Both the position numbers and the translations under genes were made by a program. Below are positions 3,542-63,255 of a DNA stretch of 64,000 nt, in pieces. How positions within the stretch are numbered: the first letter of the stretch is position 1; the number at the start of each line of letters is the position of its first letter. The DNA lies in assembly GCA_002205965.3 (NCBI GenBank), contig NADL03000002.1, positions 1,364,001 to 1,428,000 on the forward strand, written 5' to 3'. This stretch comes from Kappaphycus alvarezii (taxonomy: Eukaryota; Rhodophyta; Florideophyceae; Gigartinales; Solieriaceae). The notes under the pieces were generated by a model. That model worked only from the letters and a program-made list of their open reading frames with translations. It made no database searches and had not been told where the DNA came from.

Positions 3542-4790
3542 AGATAATGGGCTAACTTTCTTTCTTCTCGCGTATGTAGTACGAATCTGATTCAGGCCTA
3601 CCTTTCGGGTCCTAAAGTTGAATAGATGACAACAAATTGTCAACAGACGTAGACGTTTCTCGGCATCAGCAGGTAAAGGTACCTTCAGTCTTGCGAATGG
3701 AGCCTTTATCGCTCTTACACCCCACTCAGCGCTTTGTCGTTCGCTCGGCATAACACGCTGGAGAAGCATATCGATTGCAGCAAGCGCCGCTGACTCAGGT
3801 ATATCAGAAGTCTCATTTGACTTCCGTCCACGAACATCTTCCCATTCGTTGCTTTTGTGTTATTAACGAAGGCGCTATCCCCAAGAATAGCCAGTCCGGG
3901 GGGTTCTTTCATCTGACAGCTTGGGAAAATACAATCCGGAGACTGTTGCAAGCTTAGTGTCATGCCAGCTTCCCGGGTAGTTGACAGCAGCATGTATTAG
4001 CTCACCAAAGAAGTTGAAGACGAACAAATTGGTGACTTCAACCTCTTGAGTAAAACCTTCAAAGTAAGCGTTTTGCATATCGCCATCTGTGTAATCGGCA
4101 CAAGGCATGCGGCCTCCATCCGTAACAGCAAAAATGCCTTTTAAGTATTGCCCGTTGACTCTGTTTGTTTCCAGTAGCGCCGCGGATTGTCTCATCTCTT
4201 CAACAGTAGGCCACTTTATCTGGAAACACGATGTATGGTTGTCACATACTACTCGTTTAAGCACTTCCAGTCCGTAATCCAACCAGACGCCAATTGTGCT
4301 ATCCGTCACCCCAAAAATAGGACACAGGCTGTATAACGTCCCTTCGTCTTAACATACCAACACCATTCCAAGTAAGTCAACAGAGCGGAGTAATGGCTTT
4401 CTTCTCTTTTTAGGCCCTTTTCTAAATGGGCTTCCAAAGTTGTACATGGTTCGTTGATGTTCAACAGCGGGAGCATATGTTGCAGAACAAGCTCCTTCGT
4501 GAAATTAGTAGAGACGAGAAAGTCGTCATCCACACCACACGATAATATCTGGTTCCACGGAGTCGACTGGTTCGTGTTAACTGGCCGGATTAGTGCCGCT
4601 CTCCTATATTTGGCTGGTTTACGGGATCGTTTGCAAACCTTTCTGACAGATCTGCTCTTGCGAACGACACGCAAGCAAGCAGAGCAGTAGTAGTTGACGC
4701 TATGCAAGCTGCGAGCACAGCTCTACGGTATCGCCAGTGCCTTGATACCATGTACGCTGGTGGCCTAGGCAGAAATCTCTGAATTCCGCG
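3512..4790 (-). pseudogene. PIF/Harbinger DDE transposase, split over several frames
   Basis: Read on the minus strand, an N-terminal part (4306-4707) leads into a segment (3875-4309) with AVTDGGRMPC, then DMQNAYFEG and PGSWHD. A third piece (3715-3993) carries the LGDSAF block and a fourth (3512-3769) has SAEWGVRAIKAPF and the C-terminal helix. Order and spacing match the DDE_Tnp_4 superfamily endonuclease of Harbinger elements: D in the first block, D in the DSAF block, E in the SAEWG block. The enzyme would cut and paste the element in the nucleus. All the catalytic blocks remain visible but lie in three or four frames, so the copy is inactivated or the sequence has indels. Confidence 0.8.
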
Positions 4791-5406: not shown

Positions 5407-5880
5407 CTAGCTTTCGAGTGGGTGGCAAACATCTGCATGTTGCGGGGTACGACCAATCACTGAAGCTGTACACGTGGACCAAATCGTGACATAGCTCAGC
5501 TTTTGATGAAGCCGAAATGACACCTTCGCCGTAGAGCTTCCGATACGGGCGGCGATGACAGTCGCATACTCGTAGACCACCTTAGATTTGGTCTCCAACA
5601 GGCACCCCAGGGGATCAAAGGCTAGCGGCACAAACTGCCAGCCGAGTTGCGGGCGGCCAGGTGAAGCATGGCCAGGAATGCCGGCGATTTAGGTCGCAAA
5701 GTCCATCAGTTCCGCCGCATTGGCGGCAGCCCGCGCTTCCCGGGCTTGCTTGGAAAGGAAGCTCTGTTGGAAAGGTGAGGACACTGTGATGTCATAAGCA
5801 ACATTGCAGGATTGATACATATGGAGGGGTAAAGATCCGATCTGTTTTTTACTGTCGGGAGTGGCATGATACCCTAACAC
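5407..5880 (-). mobile_element. Fragment of RLE-type LINE C-terminus
   Basis: Two adjacent minus-strand frames carry AYDITVSSPF, matching the core of the restriction-like endonuclease of early-branching non-LTR retrotransposons (consensus DVTVVSP), and then VPLAFDPLGC followed by a helix with LHQKLSYVTIW. The same order is seen at 29595-30104, 55094-55520 and 62576-63001, so this is a repeated family. Only the last part of the polyprotein remains; reverse transcriptase is absent. Frameshifted and not functional. Confidence 0.65.
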
Positions 5881-40773: not shown

Positions 40774-40843
40774 TATTTGATACAGTTGAAGATGTTCTAA
40801 CGAATCAATGCAGACTACGTATCACTTAACTAGACTAGCGAAG

Positions 40844-41297
40844 AAGAAGACTTTACCAATCAGGAAAGGGGGGACCTAGCGGCCCTCAAAGGGGGAAAAA
40901 TCTATCCGAGCCAGGAGCGGTTTAGTTGTCGTCGGTTGATCGCGACAGAAGTTCGTTGTTGTATGAGCGAGCCGATAGTCGTGAACAAGCGATCGCGCTC
41001 GAAGGCAGGGCTACTGCCTTTCCGTAGAGCGATGTACTCAGCAATTCTGGACAGACCTTGTTCGGCACCGGGACCGGCAGACCCGTATATATCGAAAGCC
41101 ATCGGGTGGAAGTCGATACGTAGTTCGGCGCAGAGGTGGCCATAGCGGAGAGATTTCGCGCGTTTAGATGCAGTAAGGGCAGCGAGGGGCGTGTGGATCC
41201 GCTGTTGGTCGTATGGAGCGGAGGGGGCTGATGACAGTGACGTCGTAGCCCTGCGGCACGGGAGAGAACAACTGGTCATCATCGATGTACATGTCGA
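40844..41297 (-). mobile_element. 3' part of interrupted RLE-type LINE (outer copy)
   Basis: Minus strand. It encodes the end of the endonuclease domain (GYDVTVISP), the DFHPMAFDIYGSAGPG block and the C-terminus ending NRSWLG, then a (CTT)n-type tail at about 40844-40855. It is continuous with 43402-43603, from which it is separated by the inner LINE copy. The 11-base word GACTAGCGAAG at 40833-40843 is repeated at 43604-43614 and is the target duplication of the outer copy. Confidence 0.85.
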
Positions 41298-43401
41298 TGT
41301 TCTCCGACGCTTCATCTGCCTCGTCGTTCGGCGCTTGTCGACACAACCCACCGTCGTCTCTTATTTCCTTCCTCACCAGCTCGCCGTCGGAGTCCGCCAC
41401 GGAACAGAAGCCATCATTCATGCGACACGGTTCTCTCCACCCGCCCTGACAGCGCCAGCTTCGCTCTCCTTCAAATTGACGCGTCAAACGCGTTCACAAA
41501 ATCGAGCGCCACAACATTCTGCTCGAGACGGCCAAGCATATCCCCGACCTCGCCCGGTTTGTGCACTACTTGTATGGAGGTGATTCCACGCTCATGTTCG
41601 GTTCACACATCCTGCACAGTCGCACAGGCACCCACCAGGGAGATCCGCTCGGAAGCATCCTGTTCGCCCTTGGCATCCATCCATTGGTCACCCAGCTCTC
41701 ATCACGCTTTCCCGCCATACGCCTAAACGCTTGGTTCGCCGACGACGGTACCGTCATCGTCCCTGTCAACCTCGCTTCTGAGGTTCTCCGCTTCATCTCA
41801 GACCGTGGAAAGCCACTCGGGTTCTCTATCAACATGGCGAAAACAACGCTATGGCGTCCTGGCCCGGATCCCCTCCCCGCGTCCCTTCGGTGTGCCATAC
41901 CCTGCACGATACGTTCCACAATTCCGTGACAGTCCTCGGATCCCCAATCGGCACCCCTCAAAGCTGCCAGTCTTTTCTTGCCTCCCGCGTACATGCCATT
42001 TCCGAGGTTTGGTCGCGCATCTCCGGATTGAATGACCCTCAACTGGGCTACCAACTACTGACACTGTGCCAGTTCCTGCCGCCTGATCTATGTTCTTCGC
42101 TGCACCCCGCCGCATCTCACTCTTTCCGGAGCTCAAACCTTTGACTCTGGAATGCGAAGGGTGTTCGAAGACATGCACCGTCGTCTCCCAGACAGTGCCT
42201 GGCTCACCGCCCAGCTTCCACTACGTATGGGAGGGCTCGGACTTCCCCTAACCGAAACCATCGCAGAGGCATGCTACGCTGGCTCTGTTCTCTCCTCCTA
42301 CCCACTTCTTCGCCTCCTCCTCGGTGATTGCTTCGACGTCTCGCCCTTGATCTCAACGCCTCTCGCCTCTATCCGGGCCAAATACAGCCTCCCGACAGTT
42401 TCTCCCCCCCCGCCGTCCTTGCTGGCCTCCGCGCCTCTTCTTCCCCCGGCCTGTCTGACTTCCAGACAACCGCTACTGCTGAGATCACAAAGGCGCTTCG
42501 CGCCAAACTTCTCTCTTCCGTCGACCTCTCTCCTCCGAAGGCTCCCGGCTACTCCGCCGCCTAGCTTCCGTCGCTTCTTCCCACGCCTCCCGTCCCTTTC
42601 ACAACCTCCCGCAGAGCCATCTCGGTACCCGGGCCGCTCCTGAAGTATGGCGAACCATGGTTTGCCTCCGTCTTGGTGTCCCCATCTTCTCTGGCACACA
42701 ACCCTGCACCTATTGCGCCGCCGCCCACTTCCGCACTGTCCCCACCCTGGATTCCTACGGACACCATGCCTCTGTCTGTCCCTGCGCCGACGGCTCCATT
42801 CGGCGCCACAATTGTGTTCGCGACCGCCTCATTTCCGAGGTATCACGCTTATCAATTGGGATTCGCCCTGTCCGGGAATGGACCTTCCCGCAAGACTTGC
42901 CCCGACCCTCCAACTCCCGCCGCCGCCTCGACATCTACATCGATGATGTCCAGTTCTCTCCCGTCCCGCAGGGCTACGACGTCACTGTCATCAGCCCCCA
43001 CTCCGCTCCATACGCCCAACAGCGGATTCACACGCCCCTCGCTGCCCTTACTGCATCTGAGCGCGCGAAATCTCTCCGCTATGGCCACCTCTGCGCCGAA
43101 CTACGTATCGACTTCCACCCGATGGCTTTCGATATATACGGGTCTGCCGGTCCCGGTGCCGAACGAGGTCTGTCCAGAATTGCTGAGTACATCGCTCTAC
43201 GAAAGGCAGTAGCCCTGCCTTCGAGCGCGATCGCTTGTTCACGATTATCAGTTCGCTCATACAACAACGAACTTCTGTCGCGATCAACCGACGACAACTC
43301 AACCGCTCCTGGCTCGGATAGATTTTTCCCCTTTTGAGGGCCGCTAGCCCCCCCTTTCCTGCTTGGTAAAGTCTTCTTCTTCTTCTTCTCTTCTTTCTTC
43401 T
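41298..43401 (+). mobile_element. RLE-type LINE inserted into another copy (inner copy)
   Basis: A 5'-truncated non-LTR retrotransposon flanked by the 16-base target duplication TCGATGTACATGTCGA at 41282-41297 and 43402-43417. Plus-strand frames give, in order, reverse transcriptase (THQGDPLGSILFALGIHP; WFADDG at 41735-41749), the thumb region, a zinc motif CTYC...GHHASVC...RRHN (from 42705), the restriction-like endonuclease core GYDVTVISP (about 42970-43000) and DFHPMAFDIYGSAGPG. The 3' end is a CTT-rich tail (about 43370-43401). Frames shift near 41930, 42145 and 42650. Such elements copy themselves by target-primed reverse transcription; this one would need a full-length helper. Confidence 0.88.
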
Positions 43402-43603
43402 TCGATGTACATGTCGACGCGGCGGCGGGAGTTGGAGGGTCGGGGCAAGTCTTGCGGGAAGGTCCATTCCCGGACAGGGCGAATCCAATTGATAAGCGTG
43501 ATACCTCGGAAATGAGGCGGTCGCGAACACAATTGTGGCGCCGAATGGAGCCGTCGGCGCAGGGACAGACAGAGGCGTGGTGTCCGTAGGAATCCAGGGT
43601 TGG
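43402..43603 (-). mobile_element. 5' part of interrupted RLE-type LINE (outer copy)
   Basis: Minus-strand segment encoding the zinc-motif to endonuclease junction (FRGITLINW, REWTFPQDLPRPSNSRRR) and stopping exactly at the target word used by the inner copy; the protein resumes at 41297 downward. The outer copy was itself 5'-truncated at 43603, where its target duplication GACTAGCGAAG follows. Confidence 0.85.
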
Positions 43604-43668
43604 GACTAGCGAAGGCTCGCAGTACTTACAGTACTGTAATACTGCCTGCGACTGGGCCAGATAGTGAG

Positions 43669-44549: not shown

Positions 44550-45440
44550 CAAGATATTCGAGTCCTCATGACACTCCTTCGACAAGGACTCGACCAGTCC
44601 AAAAACCGCACGGCATCAGCTCCACCTCGGACCAGAAAGAGGTCAACATCAAAAGGGCGACGAAACTGGCCAAAGAAGGTGCGTATGGAAAGGCTGCACA
44701 ACCTTTGCGCTCGTTAGGCTTCTACCAGATACCGGTGGTGTTACAGGTACCCTTATCGATAAACATCCCAAACAGGCCCCCGATGAAACGACCATGGACC
44801 AATTTCTACCAACTACAGTTTTCGACCGATCACTGAAGATGAGATCCTTCATGCTACGAGGGGATTTAAACCGGGAACCTTTTCCACAGGCTCAGGTATA
44901 AAGCCACCTCGTAGAATTTCTACGATGTCCATCCTCATCGGGGAATTCCGGCTTTTTGGCAGCCCTTACACCACTTGTTAATGTTCTGGCAACAGGAAAG
45001 CACCTGCCGTTCTCGCCCCTTTGATCGCTGGTGCTCCACTAACCCCGTTGGCGGAACAAGACATGTCACCCAGGCCAATCGCCGTTGGGGAGACGCTGTG
45101 CAGATTGGTCGGTAGCTGCTTAATAATGCGAGTATCCCAGAAGGCGGCAGATTACCTCCAAACCTTTCAAACAGGGATCACCACCAAGTCAGTTACCGAC
45201 GCAGTTGTACACGGCATCCGAAGAGTCATTCAGGAGTACGGCAGTAATCCAGCGTATGAGTTGTTGACGATCGATCTCAAGAACGCTTTTACAGACCTGC
45301 CTTTCTGACAGCAGTGAGACAGCTACTCCAGAGTTGCAGTCTTGGATCCCATACTGCTACGCAAATGAGCCCGCATTCCTGTGGATTGACCGTCACGTCA
45401 TGAGAAGCGTCTGCGGGACGCAACGGGGGGACACCCTCGC
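44550..45440 (+). mobile_element. LINE reverse transcriptase fragment, plus-strand copy
   Basis: Frames carry LDQSKNRTASA, LIDKHPKQAPDETT, RPIAVGETLCRLVGSCL, AVVHGIRRVIQEYG, LLTIDLKNAF and the start of the next block SVCGTQRGDTLAG. These are the N-terminal and finger/palm parts of a reverse transcriptase with the IDLKNAF Asp. It breaks off at about 45440, where an inverted copy of the same family meets it. Frameshifted several times. Confidence 0.7.
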
Positions 45441-47340
45441 GGGCCCATATATGCGCGAAGCGCCTGCCTCCAGGAATCCCAAGAGGAATTCGTTCTTTTG
45501 CTGCCTCATGTATTGCGTCCGTCAACGTCTTGCGATGGCTTTTTTTGTGAGCAAATTACACTGAAAGGGATAATCCTAGACGGCAGGCAAGAGGTCGACC
45601 ATCTCCGATGCGCGTCTGTAGCTGCCTCGTATGTTCCGAGCTCCTTAATAGGAGCTCCTAGCTACGTAAAAGGAGCTGGGAGCAAGGTCCTGCAAAGCTT
45701 GCTAGATGATGAGCTAGAAGCCAAGAATGCCGCAGCCGCGATGTTCTTCGCGGAGGTGAGTCCGATCCCGAGAGATGGTTTTTTCGTGTCCTTGGTTTGA
45801 CCGGCAGCTGGAGTTCTCGGAATACTTCCGGGTCCAGTACTCCCCCTGCCAATTTTCGAACACAGTCCTCCATCATCCTGTCTAACTCTTCCGCTCCTTC
45901 TCCGGTGCAAGACGGGGGCACTACGCGCAACAAATAGCCTACTTTGCAAACGCCAAAACAGTCACGCAGTAGTTGGAACGCCACTTGCCTATTCTCAAGG
46001 TCAGCAATGGTCTCGAGGAATGTCTGAGAGATAAGACATGGTTCGTAAAGGCCGTGTGGTGTATACCTTAGTACCGACGGGGGCGTTCAGGACGGAAGTA
46101 CCCTCGCTGTACTCTTGCTTAATCCCGTCTGGGTAGAGACTCTGTACCAACCCTGGAGGGGCTTTAGGCCACCAGACGGTGCACTTCGGCAGCGATAAGT
46201 GCAGTCCTCGGCTTTCAGCATCCACGGAGCGAAGTACTTCGATGGCTTTGACGAGTTGGTCGTGGGGCCCGATAATGCACCCGTCATCGTGGTACCACAG
46301 TTGAAGTAACAACTTTGCCAAATCTCTGTTCTCCCTTTCCTCTGAACTGAAGAGTTCTTGTATTTTGGGGATAATAGGGTGCAGCACCAGGTCGAAGAGG
46401 AGGCCTCCGAGGTTGTCTCCCTGTTGGGTCCCGCAGACGCCTCTTATGGTGTGACTACCTATCCACAGGAATGCGGGCTCGTTTGCGTAGCAATATGAGA
46501 CCCAAGGCTGTACCTCTGGGAATAGCTGTCTCACCGCGGTCAGAAAAGCGGGTCTGGTGCACATATTAAAAGCGTTCTTGAGATCGACCGTTAATACCCC
46601 ATATGCTGGATCACCGCCGTACTCCTGAACGACTCTTCGGATTCCGTGCACGACTGCTTCGGTACCCGACTTTGTGGCGATACCCACTTGGAGAGGTTGG
46701 GGGTAGTCTGCCGCCTTCTGGGACACTCGCTTCATTAAGCAGCTACGGACCAATCTGCGCAGCGTCTCCCAACGGCGATTGGCCCAGGCGACATGTCTTT
46801 CTTCGCCAACGGGGTTAGTGGAGCACCAGCGATCCAAGGGGCGAGAACGGCTGGTGCTTTTCCAGTTGCTAGAACATTAACAAGTCTCGTAAGAGCTGCC
46901 AAAAAGCCGGAATTCCCCGACGACATCTTAGCAAGTCTACCAGGTGGCAAGGCTTTCGAGCTGAGCCCCCGGGAGAGGATCCTGGTTGAAATGCCCTTAT
47001 AGCACCAGGGACTTCGTCTTCAGTGATCGATCGGAAACTGTAGTTGGTAGAAAATGTTCCACTGACTAGAGTTGTTTCATCGGGGGCCTGTTGGGGATGT
47101 TTATCGATAAGGGCATCGAATACATCACTGTTAGCTGGTAGAACGCCTAGGGAGCGCAAAGCTTTTGCGGCCTTTCCGTACGCACCTTCTTTGGCTAGTT
47201 TTGTCGCCCTCTTTATATTGACTGTTGCTGGTCCGAATGAAACGAGCTGGTGCCGTGCGGTTTTTGGGCTGGTCGAGTGCTTGCGCCCATAGTGTTCTGA
47301 AGTGCCCCGCGTTCCATAAATCAATTCTTTCCCTCATTTC
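45440..47340 (-). mobile_element. LINE reverse transcriptase, minus-strand copy
   Basis: Minus strand, from 47340: LWNAGHFRTLWAQALDQPKNRTAP, LIDKHPQQAPDETTL, then a 278-codon frame (46837-46001) with RVSQKAADYPQPLQVG, VLTVDLKNAFN, GVCGTQQGDNLGGLLFDL and the catalytic YHDDG at 46294-46280. Downstream frames give VAFQLLRDCFGVCKVGYLLRV and the C-terminal helices to about 45640, then ERIPLGIPGGRRFAHIW toward 45440. It is the longer of two inverted copies. The reverse transcriptase core residues are intact; the ends are not defined and no target duplication was found. Confidence 0.78.
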
Positions 47341-47597: not shown

Positions 47598-50500
47598 CTA
47601 AAAAAGGAAATTATTTCCTCTAAAAGATCCCGTAGCTACCCAAGTACCACAACCAAATCTTACGCTCCAAGGCGTCTTTCGACATTGGCTTATGAGTAAA
47701 TCCGCCTTGTTTTGGCTAGAGCGATTGTGTCTCAGCTTGATGATGCCATTAAGGATCAGTTCCTTAACCTTGTGTACCATGAGCTCAATATGCTTGTTCT
47801 TGGGTGTCACATGGTTTGCCAAAGCCATTGAAATTGCCACTGTACTTTCTGAGTTGATAACAGATGGGCAGAAGTGGCGACCTTCAGTCCAAGGAGCTTG
47901 GTGAAATATCCCCCAAAACAGTTTCCTTATCCAGGATACCTCTTTTTCACAAGCTGCGAGTGCAGCGTATTCGGATTTTCCAGTATATTTTGCTGTTACG
48001 GTCTGCCGCTTCGATTTCCAGTAGATTGGTGAACCGTTGATGTCTACCATGAACCCAGTTGTTGATAGCCTGTTGTTCACACATTCGCCATAGTTTGCAT
48101 CAACGGAAGCACCGATAGAATCTGCTGTGATACTGTACGTGGTACTATAGTGAAGTCCCAAGTGAATAGTCCCGTTTAGATAGCGAAGTAGTCGTTTAAC
48201 TAGCTTCATATGACGCTCATTCGGGGTGTGGACTTGACTGGCCAATGCAGACACCTGGAATGACAAGTCGGGTCGAGTAGAAACGGCTAAGTAAAGTAAT
48301 CCGCCGACTATACTTCGATAAGTGTGATGTTCATTCCCATTTATTGTCTGCTTCCCACATTCTGCTGGAACAAGCAGTTTAAAGTCCATCAGGAGTGGAG
48401 TCAAGACAGAATTTTATTTGTCCATTCCATATGACCGCAGAAGGGTCTTTACATAGCACGTTTGGTCGATCCGAATTCCCAGTGGAGAGATATTGAGTGT
48501 CTATCCGATGAAATATTTCAGTTCACCAAAGAATTTGATGTTGAATGTGGACGACAACCAATCTTTTAAGTTCTGAAGTAGGGCATGGGAATTTGAAGCA
48601 AAAGCCATATCATCGAACACAACTGCTAGTATTATGTACTCTGATTTGGTACGAAGAAAATTTAGTCTGTTGAGGAAGTTGGAAGGTTTAATTCCCCAAT
48701 TAACGAGCTTTTCATGGAGAAATGAACCGTAGATATGTCCTGCTTGTTTCGCGCCATAGATGGACTTCTCCAGCTTGCATATTTGCCCAGGCTTAGCTAG
48801 TTGACGGGAAGAGTTTTCCGGCTGTTCCATGTATATTGCTACATCAACTGTTCCTTAGAGGTATGCATTGGAAATATCGCCTCCTTCCAGGATAAGATAA
48901 TTTGATGCAGCTATAGAGAAAAGTAGAGGTATAATCTCATGAGACGCGACTGGAGCGTAAATAATTTCCGGGTCGAAGTCCACGTATGCCCGTTGACGAT
49001 CCCCCCAGAGTACATCGTGCTTTTGCCATATACTGTTTCCCTGTGGAGTCCAGAGGCTTAGCTTTGAAGGTCCATTTGAAGGTAAAGGCACTATCTCAGG
49101 TTTTGGGGAACTAAGACCAAGTATTTCTCTAAATGAGTGCATTATACTCTCTGTCTATAGCCTCGGCCCACTGAGGGATGTTACAGGCTTCCGCAAATGT
49201 CAGGGTTCATACGCCGTCTTCAGGGTCCTTTCCGTCAGGGTAAACCATGTGTGCAGTCTGTTGATGCGCGGAAGTCATACATTGGATTAGGTTTTCCTGT
49301 CCTGAATCCATTAGTCTCGTTGGCGACCTCAATCTCGTGCTGTCGTGCAAGACCATCAACAAGGAAGAAATTCCTGGGAGCTGTTTGTTTGATATCGTGG
49401 TGAAGTCGGCCCTCCTGATGACTTTAAAGACTGGGTTCTGGAATATATACCCTAATCAGCCTCGTGTCTGATTCCATCCCGAAGAATGTCCGGGTTCGGA
49501 ACGAGGTTTTAGCTTTTTGGCTTGCTCCGAGTGAGGACGATAAATGAACGCGTACCCTGGTTGACCGAAAATCAGCAGTGATGGAAAACTATCTCTATAC
49601 TAGGATCCCAAAGTTGGATCGAATATTGCCGTTGACCCTAGAAGCCGGAAGCCTATTACGTAGCCAGTTTGCATGCTTTAAAGCCTCGCCCCATAGGTTA
49701 TGTGGGAGATCACTGTCGTATAAGACTCTAGCCCTTGTCCAATGCTCTTGGACGAGACGTTCAGCAGTGTTATTGCTCTCAGGTGCTCGTGGAGGAGAGG
49801 GCTTACTTCAATTCCTGATGAATTGAGGAAAGTTATCATCCCTTTGCTCATGTGTTCACCCGCTCGATCAAAAATTCTCCGCAATTTTAGTTCGAGGTCG
49901 AAAAGTGAGTTTCGGCCATAGCTTTGTAATTACGAACTATTGCAGGGAGCTCAGATCTGCTTTTGATCATCACAACGTCGGATTTTGCAGTGTACGATTC
50001 CAAGAAGTGAACGGCGTACTTGTTACCTCCGATAGAGCTAGTGAACGGACCAGATACATCCATTTGAACCTCGCTGAGTGGCTGCAGTGCTGCTCGTCGC
50101 TGGTTTGATGGGGTTTCTTGCTTTTCCGGTCAGACATGGAACACATTCGATGTTGTCGAGCTTGAACGATCGAAGGACGGTACATCGGAGAGCTGGCAGA
50201 TAGCTGCATGTACCGATCTGTCGCGATGTGTCCAGTTTTCCGGTGCCATTTCATGACCTCACTTTCGGGAATTCCTTTGTGGCTTTGTTAGCTTGCTTTG
50301 GGTAATGCTTAACTCTAAGGGTAGAGTCCGTCAACACCTTCGATAACCTAGAAATTCTTCAATGCCCAAGGAGCTGTATCTAAGGATAAAGCATCCATTG
50401 CGTTGGAACAGAGACTCTGAGAATATCACGTTGAATGTTTCGCAAGCTAACAGCCAGGATGTTTGTTCAAAATGAGGTGTATTATAGGCTTCCAAGTATG

Positions 50501-62512: not shown

Positions 62513-63255
62513 GAAGAAGAAGAAGTTTAATGCGTTCAGTATCTACTGGGGACTGCGCACGTCCTAACTATACGGTTAAGATCTAACCGGGTGTACTTCG
62601 TCGTCCATGCGCATCGGGGCTCGCGACAGGATAGCTTCAGCGATGGATGACCAAAGGGTGCAACTCAGTCGCTGGTAGATACGGCGGCGGATAACGCCAA
62701 CTGTCGAGTGACACTTGGACGCGATCCGTGGAACTAACTCCTCGATAAATGCAATAGTTCCTGGGGAAGGGGCACCTAGGGAATCAAACGCCAGTGGTCG
62801 AAATGTGAAGTTCGGCGTGTAAGGCGCAGAAGATGGGCCAGTTGAGGGAGCGGGGAGGCGTCGGGCGATGTTGCGTTCCAGGGTTGTGACCTTATCGCGG
62901 GCCGCCAGTTCAGCAGCGCCTCCGGCGACCTGGGTCGCCTTGGTGCGAACTGCGGCCTTAAACGGTGAGACGACAGTGATGTCACAGGCAATGGGGCGCA
63001 ACGTTGTGCCTTCCGGGGTTGGGGGCGGTTGTACCAGGATATCGGCGGGCCGGAGCTCAGTGCCCGGACGAGGAACGGAACCTCGTGCCGAGTATCCAGA
63101 CCCGCGGCGCGGGTAACGTGTGTCGCTATCGCATTACAGAGCGAGTTATGGCGGTGACGACGGCCGAAACCAGGGCAGCAGAGGTCGGCGGCGTGATCCC
63201 GAGGGTGTCCAAGGGGTGGTCACAGTGGTGGCAGTTGAGAACAATAAAGCGTCAC
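62513..63255 (-). mobile_element. RLE-type LINE 3' end with zinc motif, endonuclease and (CTT)n tail
   Basis: Minus strand. From about 63250: CHHC...DHAADLCC and RRHRHN (zinc motif, frame-broken), then ELRPADILVQ and CDITVVSPFK (the RPADIL...DITVVSP core of restriction-like endonucleases), a coiled helix, FRPLAFDSLGAPS and RRIYQRLSCTLWSSIAEAILSRAP, ending at 62576. Then a short 3' UTR and (CTT)4-5 at about 62525-62513. This is the best-preserved copy of the family's C-terminus here. It lies immediately after the Copia right LTR. Confidence 0.8.

Follow-up and report, generated by a model that had tools for sequence, protein, structure and literature searches.

Two nested insertions of one LINE family

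The segment from 40833 to 43614 of the window (by which we mean the whole 64,000-nt stretch of Kappaphycus alvarezii DNA analysed here) almost certainly records two successive target-primed reverse transcription insertions of one LINE family, the second nested in antisense within the first. Outer copy first and inner copy second is the only simple order of events, as the original prediction had it, because the inner copy's target duplication consists of outer sequence and because removal of the insert leaves a complete outer copy. Target-primed reverse transcription accompanied by target duplications, deletions or blunt ends is described as standard in PMC2881922.

The inner copy occupies 41298–43401 on the plus strand and is a 5'-truncated LINE of 2,104 bp out of about 4.48 kb, judged from its relatives: the 19 other near-full-length matches (loci L002–L020) all continue past its 5' end with common upstream sequence. 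Within it, on the same strand, lie the reverse transcriptase FADD motif (41735–41746, from translation), the C-terminal zinc-knuckle and restriction-like endonuclease motifs (42705–42980) and a (CTT)n-like 3' tail (43373–43401). It is flanked by two exact copies of the 16-bp word TCGATGTACATGTCGA (41282–41297 and 43402–43417), the first of which is outer-copy coding sequence; the word occurs twice in the window, where shuffled sequences lead one to expect 0 occurrences, and the junction of inner tail and duplication is found once in the 336-Mb, 884-contig assembly, contig 2 of which contains the window. The outer copy lies on the minus strand in two pieces, a 3' part with a short CTT tail (40844–41281) that matches the inner copy in inverted orientation at 95% identity, and a 5' part, itself 5'-truncated (43418–43603), with an inverted match of 97%. 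In the pairwise alignment, the 95% match spans inner-copy positions 1631–2085 and takes in 41282–41297. A second exact duplication, GACTAGCGAAG, bounds the outer copy on its 3' side (40833–40843, minus strand) and its 5' side (43604–43614, minus strand). When rejoined, the outer copy measures 640 bp and aligns end to end with the inner copy at 96% identity (617 of 643 columns identical, 18 mismatches, 8 gap positions); the alignment is gap-free at the insertion point, where the outer sequence resumes across the 16-bp word without loss. Both pairs of perfect duplications, the plus-strand truncated copy of about 2.1 kb between the 16-bp repeats, the exact join of the minus-strand copy and the CTT tail at the end of each copy had all been read correctly beforehand. 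The description of the pair as 'tail-to-tail', however, was mistaken, because the two tails point in opposite outward directions and thus face away from each other, in an antisense nest.

Inverted LINE pieces are commonly yielded by twin priming, so that a 5' inversion within one insertion might have produced the inverted layout, and the tail-less antisense fragment beside a plus copy at L002 might be a related case. In our pair, however, the inverted pieces repeat sequence that the plus copy also holds, the outer pieces join exactly across the 16-bp word, and there are two tails and two independent duplications, one set per copy, which leaves twin priming scarcely credible. Just as remote is an assembly or sequencing artefact such as a fold-back or chimeric read: the many gap positions between the copies are of a kind that long-read consensus errors could yield, but the arms differ by the 18 mismatches as well as the 8 gap positions, the perfect duplication is not the same for the two copies, and their truncation points differ. 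Separate insertions differing to this extent are not explained by fold-back or by twin priming, and we retain two successive insertions as the origin of the pair. As for L002 (391–3598), a tail-less antisense family fragment (reference 3867–4451) adjoins a plus copy whose start is at reference 1896, a layout explained by neither simple nesting nor twin priming in its standard form.

As in other nests of transposons, the interruption of an older element by a younger one reveals which insertion came first. Nested transposon insertions are the subject of REANNOTATE (PMC2672092); in the present pair both elements belong to the same family and lie in opposite orientation. The inner copy's nearest sampled relative (L003) is 98.6% identical over 2.1 kb, with 13 mismatches and 17 gap positions, while the outer copy's nearest is L018 at 96.1%, followed by the inner copy itself at 96.0%, among 53 aligned rows of at least 600 columns that count the inner copy twice (L001 and L037) and include other repeats of one copy. 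Judged by these identities, the outer copy looks older and the inner copy younger, and they also speak against a fold-back artefact. The assembly lacks one 22-nt stretch of the outer copy in its uninterrupted form; the view of the outer variant as private was nevertheless dropped, as the 16-nt core of this stretch is intact and uninterrupted in L061 and L093, which marks the 16-bp word as inherited coding sequence of the family.

The insertion had been placed at the endonuclease-domain junction. The point falls instead within an endonuclease core motif, RRRVDMYIDDD in the outer frame, whose aspartate is D118, invariant across seven domains of this genome, so that the inner copy would lie at the codons specifying the presumed catalytic aspartate of the outer copy; being a single event, this is taken as chance. 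On the reading favoured here, a 5'-truncated older copy first integrated in minus orientation, giving an 11-bp duplication; a second 5'-truncated member of the family, 2.1 kb long, later integrated into it in plus orientation and duplicated 16 bp. The restriction-like endonuclease of the element may nick its target where a few bases fit the (CTT)n RNA tail, and a staggered second nick would give rise to the target duplication. The locus is a well preserved yet ordinary nested insertion.

Other elements were seen in the same window. A second inverted pair (44583–45445 and 46402–47283, 81% identical) belongs to another LINE-type reverse transcriptase, with a minus-strand frame at 46001–46837 matching Pfam RVT_1 (2.8e-07), and no flanking duplication was recognised for this pair in the repeat scan. 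Besides, a minus-strand frame at 47598–48404 resembles by eye the end of a Copia-type polyprotein and has no Pfam match at 0.001.

A dispersed LINE family with a putative R2-like endonuclease

The 23-nt 3' end of the family has 392 exact matches in the 336-Mb assembly (201 forward and 191 reverse). L006 and L015 have an identical 5' end in differing flanks, L008 begins 10 nt further in, and the first of these three measures 4,463 bp up to its tail; about 4.48 kb was therefore taken as the full length. A family 5' end 290 bp upstream of the inner copy was also considered and proved wrong, L003 being truncated there and other copies being longer. Since L006, L015 and L008 contain frame breaks, a single open frame is deduced from their layout. 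The 661-aa open frame of L015 matched Pfam RVT_1 (8.1e-10), identifying a LINE-type reverse transcriptase; its reverse transcriptase part gave weak PDB matches to LINE-1 ORF2 (0.014) and R2 (0.15), and another part of the frame gave chance-like matches to a plant receptor at similar E-values. The sampled copies moreover display the 5' truncation, 3' tail and variable target duplications of LINEs.

Motif match, alignment and profile were combined for the C-terminal region of the inner copy (42705–42980), which contains the series C-x2-C ... H-x4-C, RRHN, E, R-x-D and D. A CCHC, RHN, E, R/KPD, D/E series is given as the endonuclease consensus in PMC12857005, and the inner copy's C-terminus does not match it in the form printed there. 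After sight of the sequence the consensus was loosened (CCHC gap of 15 for the printed 7–8, RLD for R/KPD, last spacing of 15 for the printed 12–14), and in this form it matches the C-terminus and none of 20,000 shuffles. The top PDB match of a C-terminal profile built from seven domains of this genome was an R2 retrotransposon protein at a marginal E of 0.013, covering the zinc knuckle plus the initial stretch of the endonuclease (profile positions 24–124 of 184), co-linear with the motifs. Asp118, Asp134 and Lys164 (D118, D134, K164) are invariant in the alignment of the seven domains, and Pfam named no domain in the endonuclease region (best E 0.19). As the R2 match is marginal, the endonuclease assignment depends on motif order and invariant residues together. 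On these sequence features, the family is a LINE of about 4.5 kb with a predicted C-terminal restriction-like endonuclease related to that of R2. It is a new family of a known kind, matched to no named family; a literature search returned no publication evidently describing it, and a search of a plasmid collection gave no match.

LINE clades encoding a restriction-like endonuclease are listed as CRE, R2, R4, NeSL and HERO in PMC4640811, according to which such elements are mostly site-specific and HERO holds many non-specific families. The family described here follows the same plan, with a central reverse transcriptase and a C-terminal zinc knuckle and PD-(D/E)xK-like endonuclease. Whereas CRE, R2, R4 and NeSL typically use one fixed target, the sampled insertions are dispersed, as in the many non-specific HERO families, and most of the flanks compared are unlike one another, with no fixed target common to them. 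Four copies (L008, L038, L050 and L080) do lie in one shared repeat, at different offsets. In addition, divergent families with the same endonuclease type (25–38% identical) adjoin copies at L008, L014, L016, L030, L033, L034 and L042, and a related endonuclease remnant (RPADIL ... DITVVSP ... FDSLGAPS, about 26–27% identical to the inner copy's domain) lies in the window at 62720–63079 on the minus strand. The genome seems rich in LINEs with this type of C-terminal endonuclease.

Target duplications of other family copies

For the survey of target duplications, 90 loci were considered, namely L001–L095 minus five upstream pieces (L031–L035). Dropped from these were 22 at stretch ends, two representing the same locus as the nested pair (L036 and L037) and three without alignment (L055, L057 and L063); the remaining 63 together with the outer copy gave 64 scored insertions, 9 of which were flagged as redundant, leaving 55. 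The flank key used for redundancy missed L053, a near-duplicate of L051 and L052 that has no core; of the near-duplicates L061 and L062 (core of 8), it flagged L062 and retained L061. The sample is non-random, L001–L030 being the best matches to the inner copy and the rest following in contig order among the first 100 listed 3' ends. L005 and L017 share nearly the same truncation point and lie within inverted repeats (47 nt, 96%) reminiscent of DNA transposon ends; with 5' flanks identical over 200 bp and 3' flanks 98% identical over 126, they look like one event that was later duplicated.

Similar duplications in other copies, which the original prediction had called for as a check, are indeed present: a duplication core of at least 6 nt beyond the tail was found in 13 of the 55 nonredundant insertions, including the inner copy's, compared with 0.44% of 2,476 mismatched flank pairs. 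A cruder scan with duplicates included detected matches of at least 7 nt in 18 of 44 rows versus 3.4% of mismatched pairs. By the automatic tail parser, the other 42 insertions lack a core of this length, in part because the parser is strict: it misses a 10-nt duplication in L028 and a 9-nt match in L047. Some of the 42 may be target deletions, aged copies or parser failures. Given this proportion, the clean 16-bp duplication of the inner copy, the longest of the 13, stands at the long end and is not typical.

The near-palindromic character of the 16-bp word had suggested that the endonuclease prefers palindromic, GTACATG-like targets and chooses its sites accordingly. The word does hold an 8-bp palindrome, ATGTACAT (P 0.039), and its self-complementarity is likewise unusual (P 0.027), both uncorrected values against random k-mers of equal length drawn from the sampled loci; in the outer copy itself, 20 of 625 16-mers reach at least the same self-complementarity. 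However, none of the 12 other duplications falls below P 0.05 by either measure (the lowest values, 0.078 and 0.102, both come from L070), so that the inner copy's own is the one of 13 that is unusual, where chance alone predicts 0.65 for a single measure; moreover, the word is inherited family coding sequence, found also in L061 and L093. A palindromic cleavage preference is thus highly improbable, and the near-palindrome of the inner target is most likely due to chance.

We also considered homing, in which the family would target its own copies or LINEs generally, so that self-insertion is favoured. Three observations would fit: L021 carries a 13-bp duplication, TTCAACCTGTGCA, in a target read by eye as LKNAFNLC, apparently motif A in the reverse transcriptase of a different LINE; the sequence after L022 was likewise read by eye as another LINE; and an antisense family fragment adjoins L002, which may represent a second antisense contact, but the antisense piece there has no tail and the outer part no continuation. 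Against homing, the 186 distinct 3' ends listed out of 392 include only 5 same-contig neighbours less than 10 kb apart, with the nested pair among them, and inner and outer copy are the sole nested pair recognised among those 5, the internal structure of some of which was checked. With a mean copy length of 0.57–1.45 kb (60 copies sampled, 16 of them cut, hence the range), 392 copies make up 0.07–0.17% of the genome and predict 0.26–0.66 self-insertions, while an assumed 800 copies predict 1.1–2.8, or 0.26–2.77 for 392–800 copies overall. As roughly 0.3 to 2.8 chance self-insertions are expected genome-wide, a single one is unremarkable, and homing appears very unlikely.

Microhomology between target and CTT tail

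What unites the clear duplications is a short match to the (CTT)n tail: in 12 of the 13 (the exception being L042), the bases preceding the core in the upstream copy match the tail. This microhomology averages 2.31 nt in the 13 versus 0.34 at 5,564 control positions, none of 20,000 resamples reaching 2.31, and extends over at least 2 bases in 8 of the 13 versus 5.7% of controls. Since core length was scored independently of microhomology, the excess is not a product of the selection of cases. For the outer copy, the duplication reads CTTCGCTAGTC in the copy's own orientation, and its CTTC (4 nt) fits the tail; 2 nt of the inner duplication do so. Such microhomology may reflect either cleavage by the endonuclease next to CTT-like words or a requirement of priming for a small number of paired bases. 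We tentatively entertain the possibility, doubtful as it is, that a LINE with a restriction-like endonuclease has lost its fixed target and inserts where the cut target can pair a few bases with the (CTT)n RNA tail, tail complementarity rather than endonuclease recognition being the main filter.

PMC3747384 reports that UnaL2 has a simple-repeat tail (TGTAA) with slippage and that the I element, too, ends in a repeat (TAA). The 3' end here likewise consists of tandem short units, with CTT as the unit, which may slip in reverse transcription; UnaL2 and the I element belong to the L2 and I clades, whereas in the present family the tail also matches the target start in 12 of the 13 clear duplications. 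PMC2861651 is concerned with internal deletions and did not bear on tail pairing.

The nested pair provides a clear case of ordering insertions through nesting. Beyond this locus, the family has hundreds of dispersed, R2-like LINE copies, and its clear duplications tend to start with bases from the repeat unit of the element's own tail; it may therefore serve to study to what extent pairing between RNA tail and target decides insertion sites.
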